Counted from the stretch's first letter, positions 1,092 to 21,261 are shown. The stretch is 64,000 nt of DNA from Phycisphaerales bacterium (GCA_003170415.1 PMZJ01000014.1:1-64000), one strand, 5' to 3'. Numbers and translations: made by a program. The notes: generated by a model not told the origin, from the letters alone.

Positions 1092-2351
1092 TTGAAGGAT
1101 ATGGAAAAACAAAACAACAACCCAAACCAAATCACACAGTTTGCTATTACAAACTTCAGGGACATAAAAAAGAAATTCGGCATCAAACAAAAAGACCGCC
1201 GGGGACATATGTACATCGTGGGAAAAACCGGGACAGGTAAATCTACACTGGTTGAGAATATGGTTATCTCTGATATCAAGGCAGGTTCAGGACTTGCTTT
1301 AATCGACCCGCACGGCGACTTGGCCGAGGATATACTTGATTATGTGCCCGAGGAAAGAATCGAGGACGTGATATATTTCAACCCGGCAGATAAGGAGTAT
1401 CCTGTTCCCTTCAATCCACTGGAGCAGGTGCACCCGGATTACCACCACCTTGTAGCATCAGGGCTGATTTCCGTGTTCAGGAAGGTTTGGTCTGAGTTCT
1501 GGGGACCAAGATTAGAACATATCTTGAGGCATTGCATCCTGACGCTATTAGAGTGCCCGGGAAGCACTTTGCTGGACATACCAAAGCTTTTAACCGACAA
1601 GTATTTCAGGCAGGATATATTAAGCTGCGTTACGCAGCCCCAGGTCAAAGAGTTCTGGTTTAACGAATACGATAAGTACAGTGCCTACCTGAGGTCACAG
1701 GCCATTTCGCCTATTCTCAATAAAGTCGGGCAGTTCCTGGTAGCCAGGCCCTTGAGAAACATTGTCGGCCAGAGAAAAAACACCTTCCGTTTCAGGAAGG
1801 TAATGGATGAAGGCAAAATTTTTATCGCCAACCTGTCAAAAGGCAAGATCGGCGAAGATAATTGCTCACTATTGGGGGCAATGCTGGTAACACAGATACA
1901 GCTTGCAGCTTTAAGCCGGGCGGATATTCCCGAAAACAAAAGACAAGGGTTTTACCTGTATGTCGATGAAATGCACAACTTTATTACTTTGTCTTTTGCT
2001 GATATCCTGTCAGAGGCAAGGAAATACGGCTTAAACCTCACCCTGAGCCACCAGTTCATTGAACAGCTTGATGAAAAACTCAGAGCCGCAATTTTCGGCA
2101 ACGTGGGAACCACGATTTCTTTAAGGGTCGGGGCTGAAGATGCAAAATACCTGGCCAGGGAATTCTACCCGGTTTTCTCCGAAGAGGATATTGTGAATCT
2201 GCCCAATTACCATATCTACTTAAAACTTTTGATTGACGGTGCATCGTCTGCGCCATTTAGCGCCGTGACTCTTCCTTTGCCCGGAAAAGAAAAATCTTGC
2301 AAGAGCAAAGTTGTCAACTCATCACGAGATCGTTATGCTATGCCTGATTAG
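1092..2351 (+). CDS. Type IV secretion / conjugative coupling-type (TraD/VirD4/HerA-like) ATPase
   Basis: Walker A GKTGTGKST, LIDPHGDLAEDIL, Walker B-like YVDEMHNF. Confidence 0.8.
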   Translation: MKDMEKQNNNPNQITQFAITNFRDIKKKFGIKQKDRRGHMYIVGKTGTGKSTLVENMVISDIKAGSGLALIDPHGDLAEDILDYVPEERIEDVIYFNPADKEYPVPFNPLEQVHPDYHHLVASGLISVFRKVWSEFWGPRLEHILRHCILTLLECPGSTLLDIPKLLTDKYFRQDILSCVTQPQVKEFWFNEYDKYSAYLRSQAISPILNKVGQFLVARPLRNIVGQRKNTFRFRKVMDEGKIFIANLSKGKIGEDNCSLLGAMLVTQIQLAALSRADIPENKRQGFYLYVDEMHNFITLSFADILSEARKYGLNLTLSHQFIEQLDEKLRAAIFGNVGTTISLRVGAEDAKYLAREFYPVFSEEDIVNLPNYHIYLKLLIDGASSAPFSAVTLPLPGKEKSCKSKVVNSSRDRYAMPD

Positions 2352-2377
2352 AAAATTCATAGAAGAGGGTGTAGCTT

Positions 2378-3949
2378 ATGGCCAAAACAATTGCAAAACC
2401 TGTTGGTATTTGGATCAGGGTTTCCACCGAAGACCAGGCTCGAGGCGAAAGCCCGGAACATCATGAAAAGCGGGCCAAGTTCTATGCTGAATCAAAAGAC
2501 TGGCAGGTAAAAGAGGTTTATCACCTTGAGGCCGTGAGCGGTAAATCAGTAATGGAGCATCCCGAAACCCAGAGAATGCTGGCACATATAAAGAAAGGCC
2601 ATATCACCGGCCTTATTTTCTCAAAACTCGCCCGCCTTGCACGTAACACCAAGGAACTCTTGGATTTCGCCGACATATTCCGGGAATATAACGCAGATTT
2701 GATTTCCTTGCAGGAATCCATTGACACCTCCAGCCCGGCAGGGCGGCTTTTCTACACAATGGTAGCGGCCATGGCTCAGTGGGAAAGAGAAGAAATTGCC
2801 GACCGTGTCGCAGCTTCAGTGCCCATAAGGGCTAAACTTGGAAAACCGCTTGGCGGTGCAGCGCCTTTTGGTTACCGGTGGGATGATCACAAACTGGTTC
2901 CTAATCCCAAAGAAGCTCCTATCCGGAAGTTAATGTATGAATTGTTTCTAAAGCAACAACGCAAATTGACCGTGGCCAAGCTTCTCAATGAACAAGGTTA
3001 TAGGACCCGTGGCGGTGGAAAGTTTTCCTACACCAGCGTTTGCAGGCTTTTGCGTGACTCTACTGCAAAGGGGGTTCGCAGAGCCAACTATACTAAAAGC
3101 TTAGGTAAAGGCAAGGAATGGGTGCTAAAGCCCGAGAAAGAGTGGGTTTACACCGATATCGAGCCGATTGTTTCCGAAGAACTCTGGGGCCAGTGCAACC
3201 AACTCCTGGATGAACAGGAGAAAAAAAATCAGCGACCCGCCCGGAAAGCGGTTCATCTTTTCACGGGTTTTGCCTACTGCTATTGCGGAAACAAAATGTA
3301 TGTGCCGTCTGCCACGCCGAAATATATTTGTTACAAATGCCGGAACAAGATCAGAACCAATGATTTAGAAGAAATATTCCACCAGCAGCTTAAAAACTTC
3401 TTTTTCTCGCCAGTCCAGATCTCCGAGTATCTTGCGAAAGCCGACACCCAACTTAAAGAAAAGCAGCAGCTTCTTTTAACCCTTCAACAGGAACAACAAA
3501 AAATCCAGCGGGAAATAGACAAGACATATCAACTGTATTACGATGATAAGATAGATAAAGAAGGCTTCGGTGTAAGATACGAGCCCCTGAACGAACGAAA
3601 CAAGCAGATTGAAGAGCAGATACCTCAGCTCCAGGCCGGTATTGACTTTCTAAAGATTCAATACGCCTCCAGCGATGAAATTTTCCATGAAACAAAAGAC
3701 CTCTACTCTCGCTGGTCGCAGCTAAATCTTGAAGAAAAAAGGAAGATCGTCGAGTGTATTACCGAGAAAATCATCGTCGGCAAAGACGATATAACAATCA
3801 ATTTGAGCTATCTTCCTTCGTCAGTTGAAAAGATAGCAACTTCTCACCACAACCCTGTCCCTGCGGATACTTCGGGTCGGATTCCCGGCGGTGCAAATGC
3901 ACGCCGGGGCAGGTCGAAAGATATTTGTCAAAAATTTCAGGCCCGCTGA
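2378..3949 (+). CDS. Large serine recombinase (resolvase + recombinase + zinc ribbon domains)
   Basis: IRVSTEDQA N-terminus, GLIFSKLARLARNTKELLDFADIF, CGNKMYVPS..YICYKCRNK zinc ribbon, C-terminal coiled coil. Confidence 0.9.
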   Translation: MAKTIAKPVGIWIRVSTEDQARGESPEHHEKRAKFYAESKDWQVKEVYHLEAVSGKSVMEHPETQRMLAHIKKGHITGLIFSKLARLARNTKELLDFADIFREYNADLISLQESIDTSSPAGRLFYTMVAAMAQWEREEIADRVAASVPIRAKLGKPLGGAAPFGYRWDDHKLVPNPKEAPIRKLMYELFLKQQRKLTVAKLLNEQGYRTRGGGKFSYTSVCRLLRDSTAKGVRRANYTKSLGKGKEWVLKPEKEWVYTDIEPIVSEELWGQCNQLLDEQEKKNQRPARKAVHLFTGFAYCYCGNKMYVPSATPKYICYKCRNKIRTNDLEEIFHQQLKNFFFSPVQISEYLAKADTQLKEKQQLLLTLQQEQQKIQREIDKTYQLYYDDKIDKEGFGVRYEPLNERNKQIEEQIPQLQAGIDFLKIQYASSDEIFHETKDLYSRWSQLNLEEKRKIVECITEKIIVGKDDITINLSYLPSSVEKIATSHHNPVPADTSGRIPGGANARRGRSKDICQKFQAR

Positions 3950-4335
3950 TTGACCGAATCGATATTCATATAGACGTGCCTGCGGTAAGTTTCAATAAAT
4001 TACGTTCAAGAGCAAACCAGCTTGACTCGGCAACGATAAGGGAGGACGTGATGAAGGGGCGGGTGATTCAGGCGAAGCGTTTCAGCAATGGTCCCGGCAC
4101 GCCGGGGACCAACGCGAGAATGACGCACAAGCAGGTTGAGAAATTCTGCAAGCTGGATTCGTCGGGCGAGATGCTTCTCAAAGAGGCGATGATGGAGTTT
4201 GGTCTGTCGGCCCGTGCGCACGACAAAATCTGCAAGGTCGCCCGCACCATAGCGGATTTGGCCGGCTGTGAGGACATAAAACCGGAGCACGTGGCCGAGG
4301 CAATTGGTTATCGAAAGCTGGACAGAAAACTCTAA
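3853..4335 (+). pseudogene. comM: 3' fragment of ComM/YifB-like Mg-chelatase family ATPase, split by the integrative element
   Basis: Frame +1 reads PCPCGYFGSDSRRCKCTPGQVERYLSKISGPLIDRIDIHIDVPAV...ARAHDKICKVARTIADLAG; no 5' part in window. Confidence 0.85.
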
Positions 4336-13193: not shown

Positions 13194-13829
13194 TTATTTC
13201 TTGTCGTTAGGATCCTTTGGTTGATTCGGTTCCATTTGGTTCGGGTCTCTCTTGTGATGATGCCCCTTGCCCTTTTCACCATTTTCGGCGGCGAGCTTTG
13301 TTTTATTCGGCTCGGCGGGCTTATTCACGTCGGCCGGCTTATTGATATCGGCGAATGTGCCGAAATCACTTGCACTGATGACGGTGGCCTTGTTCGGCTC
13401 AGCCGGTTTGTTGGGCTCAACGCTGTTCGGGTCTTTCTTGTGATGATGACCTTTGCCTTTTTTGCCATTTTCACCATTCTCGGCGGCGAGCTTTGTTTTA
13501 TTCGGCTCTGCCGGCTTGTTTACATCGGCGGGCTTGTTTGCCTCGGCTAAAGTGCCGAAATCGCTTGCGCTGATGATGGTGGCCTTGTTCGGGTCCTTAT
13601 CGCAACCCTTTTTGTTGGGGTCCTTATCTTTGTCGCAACCTTTGCTCTTGTCCGCTTCCGTATATTTGCTGAAATCGACGACGCCGATGGTGACCTTGTT
13701 TGGTTCAGCGGGTTTGTTGGCGTCGCCGGGTTTATTGGCGTCAACTGTTGCCGCGAGGCAGTTAGTCGCGACAAAGGCGACAGCTACAACTGCCAATACA
13801 GTTAGAAGTGTTCTTGTGTTCATTCCCAT
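13194..13829 (-). CDS. Secreted low-complexity repeat protein (NKPADVNKPAEPNK / GHHHK repeats)
   Basis: Signal peptide-like N-terminus; duplicated segment NKPADVNKPAEPNKTKLAAENGE(NG)KKGKGHHHKKDPN. Confidence 0.75.
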   Translation of the reverse strand: MGMNTRTLLTVLAVVAVAFVATNCLAATVDANKPGDANKPAEPNKVTIGVVDFSKYTEADKSKGCDKDKDPNKKGCDKDPNKATIISASDFGTLAEANKPADVNKPAEPNKTKLAAENGENGKKGKGHHHKKDPNSVEPNKPAEPNKATVISASDFGTFADINKPADVNKPAEPNKTKLAAENGEKGKGHHHKRDPNQMEPNQPKDPNDKK

Positions 13830-15282: not shown

Positions 15283-15742
15283 GCTTCCTAATAAATAGCT
15301 CTTGAAAGCAGATACTATTTCGTCAGGGTCAGGATGCGTATTGAACAAGCCCTTCGATTCCGCTCAGGACATGTCCTTCGCTGAGTCCATTCTTAAAAAC
15401 TCACAAGAAAACAAGCCAAAAGCAAAAAAAGCGGCACAGCCCCTTCTTGAAGTAAATTCCTGAAAATCCTTGTTATTGGGCTAAAAACGAGGGTTTTTAG
15501 CGATCCTCGTGTTTTGTAAATAGCTAACCGTAAAAAATATTCATTTTTTTACTAAAAACAATTTGACATTTAGGATGATACATATAAAATCGCAGTAATA
15601 GTTAGGTTAGTAAATAACAACTAACAGGCAGAAGTTAGAAGGCAGAAGCGAAAAGGCAGCCGACGGGGACGGAGTGTAGTTGGATTGCGGATTGTTGATT
15701 GCAGATTGCGGATTGAGATTTCGGATTGTAAGGAGAAGTGAT

Positions 15743-16222
15743 ATGGCCAGGAGCAGGACCTTTCAAAAGATTAGCAGGGGGAACAAAGCGGAAGCGGATT
15801 TCAAGGACAGGATAGAGCTTCTGCGAAGCAGAGTGGGTCTGCTGACAGGAAAAGACCGTGCACTGATGAAAATATACCTTGAAAACTCCGGCACATTTAG
15901 CCAAATGGCGAGAATAGCGAGCGTGAACGAGGCGAACATCGCAAGGCGGATTCACAAGCTGGTTCGCCGGCTTTTAGACGGTCAATATATCACCTGCCTG
16001 CGGAATCGCGACGAATTTACACAAGAGCAAATCGAAATGGCGAGGGACTATTTTGTGGATGGACTGGCTATGGGGGAAATAGCCGACAGACACGAGATTA
16101 CGTATTACCAGGTGAGGAAGACGATGCGAAAAATTCAGCGGCTCACATACATATCAGATATTGCTGCCCCCGCAGTTTTGCTTCGCAAAACCAGGCGCGG
16201 GGACAAATCAAAGGAGGATTGA
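15743..16222 (+). CDS. Helix-turn-helix protein, first gene of orphan terminase-like locus
   Basis: RBS aaggagaag before ATG 15743; GKDRALMKIYLENSGTFSQMARIASVNEANIARRIHKL and MGEIADRHEITYYQVRKTM. Confidence 0.7.
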   Translation: MARSRTFQKISRGNKAEADFKDRIELLRSRVGLLTGKDRALMKIYLENSGTFSQMARIASVNEANIARRIHKLVRRLLDGQYITCLRNRDEFTQEQIEMARDYFVDGLAMGEIADRHEITYYQVRKTMRKIQRLTYISDIAAPAVLLRKTRRGDKSKED

Positions 16223-16225
16223 GCG

Positions 16226-16879
16226 ATGCGAAAGTTTTCCGTGGCAAAACAATTCGAGATTAATCCGCAAAGAAGCGAGCGCGTTACGACGGTGATGCGA
16301 ATGTTCGGCGTGGGAATCGACCGGCTGAAAGACCAGCGCACGACGCACGCCTGCACAGTCGAGGTCAAGGATGGGGATATCGTTTACATAACCGGGCCTT
16401 CCGGTGCGGGCAAAAGCGTGCTGCTGTGGGAAATGCAAACGATGGTAGCGGACGATGACAAAATCGTTATCGAGCAGATAGCTTTGCCTTCGGACAGGGC
16501 GGCGATAGATTGCGTGGGTGGGAAGGGGACGATTGACGGATTGTCCCTGCTGAGCTACGCGGGGTTGAGCGACGTGTTTTGTATGCTCAATGCGCCGGCG
16601 AATCTGAGCGAGGGACAGAAATACCGCTTTCGGCTGGCCTGCGCGCTGGCTTCGGGCAGGAAGTTCATATTCGCAGACGAATTCTGCAGCAATCTGGACC
16701 GAATTACCGCGGGCGTCATCGCATACAACGTCCGCAGGTTCGCCAAGCACAACGGCGTTACGTTTTTCCTCGCGTCGGCTCACGAGGACATATTGGCGGA
16801 TTTGCAGCCGGATGTGCTCGTCGTAAAAAACTTCACGGGCGAAGCGGAAGTCACATATAAGGGCAAAAGTAAAAAGTAA
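16226..16879 (+). CDS. Stand-alone ABC-type ATPase (no permease)
   Basis: Walker A ITGPSGAGKSVL, signature NLSEGQKYRFRLACAL, Walker B KFIFADEF, His-switch region LASAHED. Confidence 0.85.
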   Translation: MRKFSVAKQFEINPQRSERVTTVMRMFGVGIDRLKDQRTTHACTVEVKDGDIVYITGPSGAGKSVLLWEMQTMVADDDKIVIEQIALPSDRAAIDCVGGKGTIDGLSLLSYAGLSDVFCMLNAPANLSEGQKYRFRLACALASGRKFIFADEFCSNLDRITAGVIAYNVRRFAKHNGVTFFLASAHEDILADLQPDVLVVKNFTGEAEVTYKGKSKK

Positions 16880-16895
16880 AAGGGAAAAAGTAAAA

Positions 16896-17654
16896 ATGGA
16901 AATGTGTACGGTGGCGAGAAATCTTGAGATTGTGCGGGGGACGAGGGCGGATTACGAATCGCTTTCGCATTATCATTACCGCGAGCCGAATATGGGGCCA
17001 TACGCGGCGATTTTCGCGTTGAGGGGCAGTTTTAGAACCGCGGAACGATTGCAGACCGTGGGCGTGATTGTTTATTCGATGCCGACGGCGGGTGCGCAGA
17101 TGCGAAACTTCGCTACGGGCGAGTGTTTCGCCGGGCTGGATAAGGGTACACGTCTCAAGCTCATCAACAAGAACATCCGCACAATAAGCAGGGTGATTAT
17201 CGAGCCGAGGTTTCGCTCGCTGGGGCTTGCGGTCCGATTAGTTAAAGAAACGATGCCCATTATGAATGTCCCCTTTGTCGAGGCGCTGGCGGTGATGGGC
17301 AGGGCGAACCCGTTTTTTGAAAAGGCGGGTATGACCCGGTATGAGAATGACCCCCAGGCAGGCCTGGGGGCTAAACGGCTGATTGAGGCGTTCAGCGCGG
17401 TCGGCGTAAATGAGCAGGATTTAATTGACCCGGCGATTGTCCAGCAAAAGCTGGACAAGCTGAGGACAGAAGACGGAGGACAGAAGGCGGATTTTGTCGA
17501 AGAAGAAATGACGAGATTCCTTCAAAGCTATGGCCAAAGACGACTTATGCAGCCCGGCATCGTTCGCACAAGATTCGTCCTCAGCAAACTCACCGACAGG
17601 CCAGTGTATTATTTGTGGAAAAACCCGAACCTTCAATTGATTATTGATGATTGA
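16896..17654 (+). CDS. GNAT-like acetyltransferase domain protein
   Basis: ISRVIIEPRFRSLGLAVRLVKETMP...VPFVEALAVMGRANPFFEKAGM. Confidence 0.7.
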   Translation: MEMCTVARNLEIVRGTRADYESLSHYHYREPNMGPYAAIFALRGSFRTAERLQTVGVIVYSMPTAGAQMRNFATGECFAGLDKGTRLKLINKNIRTISRVIIEPRFRSLGLAVRLVKETMPIMNVPFVEALAVMGRANPFFEKAGMTRYENDPQAGLGAKRLIEAFSAVGVNEQDLIDPAIVQQKLDKLRTEDGGQKADFVEEEMTRFLQSYGQRRLMQPGIVRTRFVLSKLTDRPVYYLWKNPNLQLIIDD

Positions 17655-17668
17655 TTATTGGAAATTTT

Positions 17669-18322
17669 ATGAAGCACATAACACAGGCAATCGCATTGAA
17701 TAAACTTGTCGCGCATCCGGATAATCCCAACGTGATGAGCGATGCGACATTTCGCAAGCTGGTTCGCAATATCGAGCGGACGGGACTTTATGAGCCGATT
17801 GTCGTCAGGCCTCATCCCGACGAGAAAGACCATTCCGCCACGGCGGATAAATTCCAGATTATCAATGGCCATCACCGCGTAAAAGCTTTGGAGCGACTGG
17901 GGCGTAAAGAGGCGGATTGCGTCATCTGGGACGTGGACGATGAGCAGACGAGCATTTTGCTGACGACGCTGAATCGCTTGGCCGGCTCGGATACGCTCGC
18001 GAAGAAGATAGAATTGCTGAAAAAACTTACGGAGCGGATGGGAACAGCCCAGCTTGCCAAGTTACTCCCTCAGACGGCTAAGCAGATTGAACGGCTGACA
18101 AACCTGAAACTGTCCATCTCGCCCATCAAGGCCCAGGCGGAACAGTTTGCCATACCGATTGTGTTTTTTGTAACAAAGCAGCAGCAGGAGATTATCGAGA
18201 ATGCGATTGAGACAGCAGCGGGGGGCACTCGGAATGACAAACAGTCAAAGGCGCAGCGAAGGGCTGTGGCGATTACGGAAATAGCAGGCCAGTTTATGGA
18301 GGGCGAAAAATGCCGGATGTAA
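17669..18322 (+). CDS. ParB/Srx-fold N-terminal domain protein
   Basis: NKLVAHPDNPNVMSDATFRKLVRNIERTGLYEPIVVRPH...FQIINGHHRVKALERLGRKEADCVIW; ORF opens at 17651. Confidence 0.85.
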   Translation: MKHITQAIALNKLVAHPDNPNVMSDATFRKLVRNIERTGLYEPIVVRPHPDEKDHSATADKFQIINGHHRVKALERLGRKEADCVIWDVDDEQTSILLTTLNRLAGSDTLAKKIELLKKLTERMGTAQLAKLLPQTAKQIERLTNLKLSISPIKAQAEQFAIPIVFFVTKQQQEIIENAIETAAGGTRNDKQSKAQRRAVAITEIAGQFMEGEKCRM

Positions 18323-18747
18323 AACAACTTACAAAAAACGGTTCGACAAAGCTCACCGCAAGGCAACTTGCGGTGATTGATGATTTGTTTGCGGGCGAAC
18401 TCAATGAGCAGCAGGTTTTTGAAAAGCACAGGATTAACAAACGCGTTTACGATAAATGGCTGACAGAGGAGAATTTCGCGGGCGAGTTTGACCGGCGAGT
18501 GAAGTCAGCCCATCGGCAAAGCGAACTGATAATCGCAAGATTCGCGACCGTGGCCGCGGCCAAATTGGTGCAGTTGACCGAATCAACGAATCCCGAAACC
18601 GCCCGCAAGGCCTGCTTAGACGTCATCAACTATCTGCGGCAAAACAACCAGTCCTCGCCGGCCGAACAAACTGAAAACGAGCAACCGCCAGACCTCCCGC
18701 CGGAACTCGCAAGTCGGTTATTAGCTGCCCTGGCCGCGAGCGAATAA
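18310..18747 (+). CDS. Phage terminase small subunit-like HTH protein
   Basis: LTARQLAVIDDLFAGELNEQQVFEKHRINKRVYDKWLTEENFAGEFDRRV. Confidence 0.6.
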   Translation: MPDVKQLTKNGSTKLTARQLAVIDDLFAGELNEQQVFEKHRINKRVYDKWLTEENFAGEFDRRVKSAHRQSELIIARFATVAAAKLVQLTESTNPETARKACLDVINYLRQNNQSSPAEQTENEQPPDLPPELASRLLAALAASE

Positions 18748-18754
18748 AAAAACG

Positions 18755-18807
18755 AAGGGAGGCACTCGCTCTTTTAGGGTACTCATAATTTGTGAGCGGT
18801 CTCCCTT
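18755..18807. repeat. Hairpin H1
   Basis: aagggag(18755-18761)/ctccctt(18801-18807) with inner cgctc(18767-18771)/gagcg(18794-18798). Confidence 0.6.
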
Positions 18808-18988
18808 GTATTATCATCGCCTTCTGATTTTCGCTTCTTTGAGGCCTTATGCCTTGCGGACCCGCGAGTCCCATCACCATCCTCCACAGAAAGTATATGA
18901 CAGGATTCGGCAAAAGCAAAAAATATCGCGTGCGATTTGCAGAAAATTTGAATGGAATATTATCGGGCGGGGACAATACGAAATAAAA

Positions 18989-19052
18989 AAAGAGAGACGT
19001 AGGCCCAGAATGTCTCGCCCTCGCTTTCTTCCAAAGGGCACCGTCTCTCTTT
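18989..19052. repeat. Hairpin H2 with nested inner stem
   Basis: aaagagagacg(18989-18999)/cgtctctcttt(19042-19052); inner gccct/agggc. Confidence 0.7.
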
Positions 19053-19281
19053 ACGAAAAACTTTTTAGCATTAACCCTGCACCTATTTTGGAATCAACAC
19101 AGGTTTCCGCACCCTTCGGTACGGCAAATCCGACATCCCAAAACAGGCGCGGGGTGTTCATCCACTTACAATATACGTTTTATTTTCAGTTGGCCAAAAT
19201 CAATGCAGCAGAAATTTTTTGAGCAGGCGGGCGATTCCCGTTATAATCAGCCACTCGGCGAAATAGCCGGAAAGGAAAGAA

Positions 19282-19716
19282 TTGATGAAAATAGCGATTG
19301 GCGCAGACCAGGCGGGTTTCAAATATAAAGAGCAGATAAAAAAGTGGCTCATCGATAAGGGGTATAGCGTTGACGATTTCGGCACGGATTCGGAAAAGCC
19401 GTGCGATTATCCCGATATTATGAGGCCTGTGGCAAAGGCGGTCGCCGCGGGCAAATACGACCGTGGAATCATTTTAGGCGGCTCGGGCAACGGCGAGGCG
19501 ATGGTCGCAAACAGGGTCAAAGGCGTGCGATGCGCCTTGTGCTGGGATTTGCGTTCCGCTCGGCTGAGCAGGGCACACAATGATGCGAATACGCTGGCGA
19601 TGGGCCAGCGGATGATTGCGATTGAAGAGGCCCTTGAGATTGTCGAGCTTTGGCTCAATACCCCCTTTGACGGCGGACGCCACCTCACCCGTATTCAAAA
19701 AATAGATGCGGAATAA
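19282..19716 (+). CDS. rpiB: Ribose-5-phosphate isomerase B
   Basis: KIAIGADQAGFKYKEQIKKWL..DFGT...CDYPDIMRPVAKAV..YDRGIILGGSGNGEAMVANRVKGVRCALC. Confidence 0.92.
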   Translation: MMKIAIGADQAGFKYKEQIKKWLIDKGYSVDDFGTDSEKPCDYPDIMRPVAKAVAAGKYDRGIILGGSGNGEAMVANRVKGVRCALCWDLRSARLSRAHNDANTLAMGQRMIAIEEALEIVELWLNTPFDGGRHLTRIQKIDAE

Positions 19717-19776
19717 AGCTAAGTATAGTTAAGATTCAAATCACAAATTTTCAATTCTGGAATTCGGAGGCGTACT

Positions 19777-21261
19777 ATGACTAACGGTATCATTCTGCCG
19801 GTAAATGCGCAGGCCCAAAGTGTTTCCCGTTTGTATGAGTCGCTGCGGCGGGCAACGCCGATGACAAAAGACGACCTGAAAAACTACATCAAGGTTTTTC
19901 TGGGAATCGACGTGCCGGATAAGCGGATATGCCCGGAACACAACAGCCCGCTGGATTATCTCTTGCATAGTTTCAATTGCGATTTTTCGGATTCCAAACC
20001 AGCCAACGCGGATTGCGTCGTCTGGGCGAACCGTGGCGGGGGCAAGACGGAGCTGGCGGCTGCGGCGACGCTATTGGATTGCGTATTCAAGCCGAATTGC
20101 CAGGTTCGGATATTAGCCGGCTCAGAGGAACAGGCGGGAAGAATGTATCGGTATCTCACCGATTTCCTGCGGCTTGGCTTCGATAAGTTTCTCGCTGAAC
20201 CAATCCGTAAAGCCGGCTGTCGATTTGCCAATGGTTCTGCGGTCGATGTCCTCACGCAATCGCAGGCGAGTGTTCGGGGCCAGCATATCCAGAAGCTTCG
20301 CTGCGATGAGGTTGAGCTTTTTGATAACGATGTTTTTAACGCCGCGAAATTCACCACACAAAGTACCGATAGTATTATTGCCGGTATGGAGACAATCAGC
20401 ACAATGCACAAACCCTACGGTCTTATGCAAAAGCTCGTTTCCTCAGCGGCTAAAACAAATACACCTGTCTTCAAATGGTGCGTCTGGGAAACAATTGAGA
20501 AGTGCACTGACAGGAATTGTTCCCAGTGTTTGTTGTGGGGCGATTGCGCGGGCAAGGCGAAACAGGCAGCCGGCTATCTGAAAATTGATGACTGCATTAC
20601 GCAGATGCGCCGCAGCAGCAGGGCGGGCTGGGAAGCCGAGATGCTATGCCTGAAACCTAATCTCGAAAATGTCGTCTTTGACCAGTTTGATACGGCCATT
20701 CACGTCAGGCCAGTCGAATATGATGCAAATTTGCCTTTGTATCGCTCGCTGGACTTCGGGTTTACCAATCCCTTTGTCTGCCTGTGGATTCAGGTCGATA
20801 GCGAAGGCGTGGTGTGCGTGATTGATGAGTATGTGCGAACCCGCGCGACAATCGATGTTCATGCGGCGGAGTTGAAGACCAGAGTCCTTGGCGGTGAATC
20901 GCGAATCATAGCGACCTTTTGCGACCCGGCAGGCGCGGGAACCAATGACGTTACCGGCACAAGCGCGGTTCGTGAATTACGTTCGCTTGGGATAAACGTG
21001 CGTTATCGCAGAAGCGGCATCGCCGAGGGTATCGAGTCAATTCGCCGGGCGATACGTGATGGCGCAGGCAAAAGCCGATTTGTTGTCTCGCCCAAATGTG
21101 CCCGTCTGATAGAGGCCCTGACCTGCTATCATTATCCCGATACGCCAACAGGCGATGAACTACCACTCAAAGACGGCGTTTACGACCACCCCATCGACGC
21201 CCTGCGTTATTTCTTCATAAACTTTGAACATACCGCGCGAACAGGACATAGGATTTATTGA
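19777..21261 (+). CDS. Phage terminase large subunit-like protein
   Basis: CVVWANRGGGKTELAAAATLLD; RSLDFGFTNPFVCLWIQ; FCDPAGAGTND; DHPIDALRYFFINF. Confidence 0.85.
   Translation: MTNGIILPVNAQAQSVSRLYESLRRATPMTKDDLKNYIKVFLGIDVPDKRICPEHNSPLDYLLHSFNCDFSDSKPANADCVVWANRGGGKTELAAAATLLDCVFKPNCQVRILAGSEEQAGRMYRYLTDFLRLGFDKFLAEPIRKAGCRFANGSAVDVLTQSQASVRGQHIQKLRCDEVELFDNDVFNAAKFTTQSTDSIIAGMETISTMHKPYGLMQKLVSSAAKTNTPVFKWCVWETIEKCTDRNCSQCLLWGDCAGKAKQAAGYLKIDDCITQMRRSSRAGWEAEMLCLKPNLENVVFDQFDTAIHVRPVEYDANLPLYRSLDFGFTNPFVCLWIQVDSEGVVCVIDEYVRTRATIDVHAAELKTRVLGGESRIIATFCDPAGAGTNDVTGTSAVRELRSLGINVRYRRSGIAEGIESIRRAIRDGAGKSRFVVSPKCARLIEALTCYHYPDTPTGDELPLKDGVYDHPIDALRYFFINFEHTARTGHRIY

Follow-up and report, generated by a model that had tools for sequence, protein, structure and literature searches.

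A conserved terminase locus in planctomycetes as the putative packaging half of a split, gene transfer agent-like particle system

The window analyzed here, a stretch of 64,000 nucleotides from a Phycisphaerales bacterium (GCA_003170415.1, PMZJ01000014.1:1-64000), carries a compact set of genes that resemble the DNA-processing and packaging genes of tailed phages (Table 1). We found the seven open reading frames and the short junctions between them exactly where the first-pass annotation had placed them, and profile searches of all seven proteins supported each of the proposed names to varying degrees. The support was firm for the terminase large subunit (TerL), the ABC ATPase, the ParB-like protein, and RpiB, while the terminase small subunit (TerS) and the GNAT protein were named via phage-family profiles. 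The GNAT protein matched the Pfam GNAT family only at 0.1, so that its identity rests on the phage-family profile and on motif A (RFRSLGLA), which is conserved among relatives; its structure model was of low confidence (mean pLDDT, 56). In sequence searches of the PDB, this protein had no credible match, and TerL had none beyond a weak one to a terminase.

Table 1. Genes of the packaging locus, in window coordinates, and of the virion cluster on contig C16 of the same genome (G000).
Feature	Position	Strand	Profile match
HTH/sigma-region-4-like DNA-binding protein; packaging-module gene 1	15743..16222	+	UPF0122/YlxM-like HTH, E=4e-6; phrog_323 regulator, 7e-5
Stand-alone ABC ATPase	16226..16879	+	ABC_tran, 2e-10; phrog_293, 4e-28
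GNAT-type acyltransferase, paired with the ABC ATPase	16896..17654	+	phrog_886, 1.7e-12
ParB/Srx-fold protein	17651..18322	+	ParB_N, 8e-8; phrog_723/3264, ParB-like
TerS, terminase small subunit	18310..18747	+	phrog_2538 TerS, 3.4e-6
rpiB, ribose-5-phosphate isomerase B, host gene	19282..19716	+	LacAB_rpiB, 2e-56
TerL, terminase large subunit	19777..21261	+	phrog_2, 1.8e-20; Terminase_6C, 2e-6
SPP1-type portal	G000:C16:130940-131836		PF05133; phrog_64, 5e-23
Scaffold protein	C16 cluster		PF06810, 3e-8, slightly below Pfam's own cut-off
SU10-type major capsid protein (MCP)	C16 cluster		SU10_MCP, E=1e-85
Connector-sized protein, 218 residues	C16 cluster		
Several tail-like proteins	C16 cluster		without family matches
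Coiled-coil protein with one TM, 92 residues	C16 cluster		
Lipoprotein	C16 cluster		

The Walker A and nuclease motifs that had been claimed for TerL are present, and its Walker A and B residues and nuclease aspartates (D326, D383, and D474) are at least 97% conserved over 77 aligned rows, so that TerL is an intact motor-nuclease rather than a relic. The ABC ATPase keeps its Walker A, signature, Walker B, and D-loop motifs (21 rows), and the ParB-like protein keeps G73, R76, and a TLNRL motif (29 rows). The locus thus couples an ABC ATPase, with its catalytic motifs intact, to a GNAT protein in a DNA-processing context, the arrangement that characterizes the predicted ABC-GNAT DNA-modification cassettes. 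For the HTH gene, the open reading frame begins with a TTG at position 15680, but the proteins of relatives begin with MARSR, which matches the ATG at 15743 and makes this the most likely start. The ParB-like gene probably begins at an ATG at position 17669, within the open reading frame that opens with the TTG at 17651.

The order HTH-ABC-GNAT-ParB-TerS-(other genes)-TerL was kept in many relatives, often with aspS downstream, and the HTH gene held its first position and TerS its place directly after ParB; the grouping can therefore not be ascribed to chance. The rpiB gene, which had been counted as a member of the locus, encodes a host enzyme and lies close to TerL in a number of families within the order. 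We take it to be a long-standing chromosomal neighbor adjoining the packaging locus, not a component of it.

The first-pass annotation had described this locus as free of virion genes, which is true of its neighborhood but not of the genome. A virion cluster (locus L142) lies at approximately 130.3 to 141.7 kb of contig C16, on a different contig from the packaging genes, and holds the only SPP1-type portal match and the only capsid gene of the genome, together with scaffold, connector-sized, tail-like, coiled-coil, and lipoprotein genes (Table 1). The earlier proposal of a domesticated packaging module was right about the origin but incomplete. The tail-hub-like gene of this genome has an in-frame internal deletion of approximately 240 residues, and the structure model of its product was of low confidence (mean pLDDT, 44). 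Tail-like genes were found in the majority of genomes from the window's family. In the genomes that we read outside this family, the cluster is reduced to a six-gene core, namely portal, scaffold, MCP, k3, k6 (with a TM), and k15 (a lipoprotein), some of the small genes being missing from individual genomes. Five such genomes that were read closely (G010, G062, G063, G069, and G071) had no tail genes beside the capsid cluster, and no sheath, tube, tape measure, or integrase gene was recognized in the planctomycete capsid cluster.

To describe the distribution of both halves, we used samples of 99 genomes from the window's genus, family, and order, 298 from its class, and 392 from its phylum. 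Among the 99 genomes, TerL was detected in 82 at the reporting threshold (80 after weak matches were dropped), MCP in 71 (70 of them real), and the SPP1-type portal PF05133 in 66, with one match each; TerL and MCP were nearly always single-copy. MCP was further detected in 131 of the 298 class genomes and in 56 of the 392 phylum genomes, some matches of the latter being weak and the clear ones including genomes outside the class, at 47 to 52% identity. Across the class, 122 genomes had both TerL and MCP, 139 had neither, 30 had TerL only, and 7 had MCP only (p=1e-44, a value that is overstated because the test takes related genomes as independent, although its direction is not in doubt). The conserved portal-scaffold-capsid cluster that co-occurs with TerL thus fits an earlier suggestion that the locus is a gene transfer agent (GTA) part encoded in pieces. 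The 30 of 152 TerL-positive class genomes in which MCP went undetected, some with only distant TerLs, exceed what MAG incompleteness easily explains, while any single absence in a MAG can equally be an assembly gap. A packaging gene lay within 50 kb of a capsid gene in 22 genomes, and in G010 TerL directly follows the head cluster (portal-scaffold-MCP-k3-k6-k15-TerL); overall, the distance between the halves ranged from 3 kb to 1.1 Mb.

We also searched for the HK97-type capsid PF05065 and the portal PF04860. They were found in 14 and 7 of the 99 genomes, respectively, as sporadic prophages, and neither was found in the window's genome in searches in which the Caulobacter control was positive. 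An element of the RcGTA kind was therefore rejected.

Both halves have been inherited vertically with their hosts. The identity of TerL drops with kinship, from 79 to 92% in the genus to mostly 60 to 75% in the family and approximately 50 to 65% in the order, close to that of the DNA-repair gene mfd. IQ-TREE distances from 28 genomes correlated with those of Mfd at a Mantel r of 0.936 for TerL and 0.865 for MCP, values that none of 2,000 permutations reached. Of the splits with at least 95% support, 4 of 6 for TerL (one conflicting) and 5 of 5 for MCP were common to Mfd; branches with little support varied freely among the trees, as short single genes would lead one to expect. Purifying selection, which the first-pass annotation had proposed to examine, was evident from the dN/dS ratios of TerL (0.05 to 0.12), MCP (0.10), and portal (0.09), and the GC content of both halves is near that of the host. 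No integrase or replication gene was recognized among the neighbors scanned at either half. A mobile, patchy, multicopy distribution with a phylogeny incongruent with that of the host, as expected of prophages, was not observed, and for the family as a whole a decayed prophage was rejected, as the TerL and MCP trees follow Mfd; the virion part has nonetheless been lost in close relatives, as described below.

No close phage relatives were found. Phage TerLs were approximately 22 to 36% identical over part of the protein, the best phage MCP was 32% identical, and a scan of viral contigs with the ABC ATPase gave no match. In IMG/VR, a close capsid gene was present on a single contig, which also carries radical-SAM genes of bacterial type and looks like a piece of planctomycete chromosome.

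Taken together, the co-occurrence of the two halves, their vertical inheritance, the intact catalytic sites, and the scattered loci are most simply accounted for by a split GTA-like system. The tailed-phage derivation of the terminase, portal, and capsid genes, their spread over several loci, their descent with the host lineage, and the purifying selection acting on them match published features of GTAs (PMC11841831). Judging from sequence, we put the probability at about 0.72 that the locus is the packaging half of an ancient, domesticated, split tailed-phage particle system working like a GTA. This system is probably an undescribed, host-owned GTA that has been inherited across planctomycetes like ordinary chromosomal genes.

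It is also conceivable, though unlikely, that the terminase/ABC/GNAT/ParB module is kept because it has gained a second host function that does not depend on the virion (immunity, or the processing or modification of DNA), with the virion genes themselves on the way to being lost. In two genomes of the window's genus, G001 and G003, the portal and MCP were not found although the packaging module was kept. In G003, unrelated genes occupy the former virion site after dinG, where the C-terminal 44 residues are all that is left of k15. The TerL of the capsid-less G003 is still constrained (dN/dS, 0.05 to 0.12), and across the class TerL without MCP is more frequent than the reverse (30 versus 7). 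However, TerL would look constrained for some time after a recent loss, purifying selection also acts on the portal and MCP, and the halves co-occur overwhelmingly in a test that took genomes as independent.

An ordinary, widespread temperate phage family that integrated repeatedly and partly decayed would explain why every part is of tailed-phage origin, and telling GTAs from remnant prophages by sequence is difficult (PMC11841831). We regard it as improbable, since the gene trees follow the host, most genomes have a single copy, the neighbors aspS and rpiB recur, the halves lie up to 1.1 Mb apart, no integrase was seen among the neighbors scanned beside either half, and the closest phage or IMG/VR relatives reach only approximately 36% (part of TerL) and 32% (MCP), the contig with bacterial genes excepted. 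Packaging genes without adjoining virion genes, in an operon that opens with a regulator-like HTH gene, are also reminiscent of a phage satellite (PICI-like), or of a defense island, that hijacks helper particles via its own terminase. Vertical inheritance throughout the order, a portal/capsid cluster of its own in most genomes, the failure to see an integrase among the neighbors scanned at the locus, and the lack of a specific PADLOC match render such an element very improbable. The PADLOC search, which returned only generic ABC and ParB matches and a marginal GIY-YIG match, gave no match to characterized defense proteins beyond generic domains, so that the conflict or defense system once suggested for this locus was not borne out.

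If the split GTA-like system operates as we infer, it may be induced, perhaps via the HTH gene, after which the ABC, GNAT, and ParB proteins would process or chemically modify the DNA before packaging, as predicted for phage ABC-GNAT pairs. TerS and TerL, the latter with its catalytic residues intact, would then cut chromosomal DNA and pump it via the portal to fill the capsid. Lysis or envelope passage might conceivably be the task of the TM and lipoprotein genes, and the putative particles would carry host DNA to sibling cells. What speaks against the GTA reading is that delivery into recipients is needed, yet the five closely read genomes are without tail genes by the capsid cluster. The 30 class genomes with TerL but no detected MCP also count against it, as do the loss of the virion cluster in G003, whose TerL is still constrained, and the tail-hub deletion in the window's genome. 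In the window's genus, the particle may thus be failing, or the packaging genes may serve a second purpose. We tentatively consider, as a possibility more doubtful than the GTA reading itself, a planctomycete GTA that arose before several classes of the phylum diverged. It would have a minimal six-gene head core without adjacent tail genes, another delivery route, and an ABC-GNAT-ParB base-modification cassette that marks packaged host DNA, for example, against restriction in the recipient. A GTA of the age seen here, with portal and capsid families unlike those of RcGTA and a tie to a predicted DNA-modification cassette, would be an independent origin; it would also provide sequence handles for finding further GTAs and make the chemical marking of packaged host DNA a testable question.

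Verified GTAs are few, being known from Alphaproteobacteria, Brachyspira, Desulfovibrio, and Methanococcus (PMC11841831), and how common unrelated GTAs are is an open question; we found none reported for Planctomycetota in the open-access literature that we searched, which omits some journals. The planctomycete system resembles RcGTA of Alphaproteobacteria in its domesticated tailed-phage genes over several loci, deep vertical inheritance, and purifying selection (criteria in PMC11841831), but its portal is of the SPP1 type, its capsid is of the SU10 type, and ABC-GNAT-ParB genes stand beside the packaging genes. Iyer et al. (2013, doi 10.1093/nar/gkt573, as cited in PMC7824862) predicted that a GNAT protein coupled to an ABC ATPase acylates a DNA base. 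The planctomycete pair, likewise a coupled ABC ATPase and GNAT protein in a DNA-processing context, presumably belongs to the family of this prediction, but its genes are separate, stand beside ParB and terminase genes, and are fixed in bacterial chromosomes.

Among phages, the SU10 type represented by Sporosarcina phage Lietuvens shares the portal-scaffold-MCP order, with an MCP that is 32% identical over 94%, but this phage also possesses an integrase, terminal repeats, and a complete tail made with sheath, tube, and tape measure proteins. The SSU5/nickie-type phages show a ParB-ABC-x-GNAT-x-DNA-binding-TerL order, with ABC and GNAT proteins that are 38 to 40% and approximately 25% identical, respectively. 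These are real phages, with portal and capsid genes directly after their TerL, whereas the planctomycete cassette is chromosomal, with its ParB gene after GNAT and its capsid genes at another locus.

G003, a close relative in the window's genus that keeps the terminase large subunit (TerL) without portal and major capsid protein, is a case in which the capsid half has been lost. At its empty virion site (L267), unrelated genes separate dinG from a 44-residue relic of the lipoprotein gene k15. In an IMG/VR contig catalogued as a virus (L260, IMGVR_UViG_3300031673_016560), the capsid cluster adjoins radical-SAM and other bacterial-type genes; this contig is likely host chromosome misclassified as virus.

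We found the major capsid protein gene, mcp, to be split at codon ~48 to 61 in four class relatives (G099:C106, G240:C1, G156:C41, and G145:C33). The two parts are ~7 kb apart in G099 and ~12 kb apart in G240, and lie on opposite strands with ~1.6 kb between them in G156, while the first part alone was found in G145. Perhaps a site-specific element within the gene causes the split, and such an element could possibly be a regulatory switch.

Short repeats of the final ~30 TerL residues were found ~1 to 3 kb downstream of terL in G002, G023, and G045, as if its 3′ end were an integration site of elements that rebuild the gene. At six loci of relatives (L048, L062, L081, L091, L094, and L103), an HTH protein gene, perhaps ImmA/IrrE-like, lies immediately 3′ of terL, followed in some by the gene of a small protein judged by eye to be PIN-like; the two are possibly a toxin-antitoxin or regulatory pair.

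Coordinates of the features in the window and in G003
Feature	Location	Strand	Basis or detail
T4SS-coupling/HerA-like ATPase	window 1092-2351		Pfam
Large serine recombinase	window 2378-3949		Pfam
ComM/YifB, C-terminal part	window 3925-4335		Pfam
Secreted-looking protein	window 13194-13829	-	PAEPNK/DVNKPAEPNK-like repeated motifs
Empty virion site	L267 (G003:C37:16001-36000), locus positions 12.1-19.2 kb		

The secreted-looking repeat protein is of low-complexity composition. At the contig end (window 1092-4335), the C-terminal part of ComM/YifB adjoins the HerA-like ATPase and serine recombinase genes, and comM is probably the insertion target of a mobile element there.
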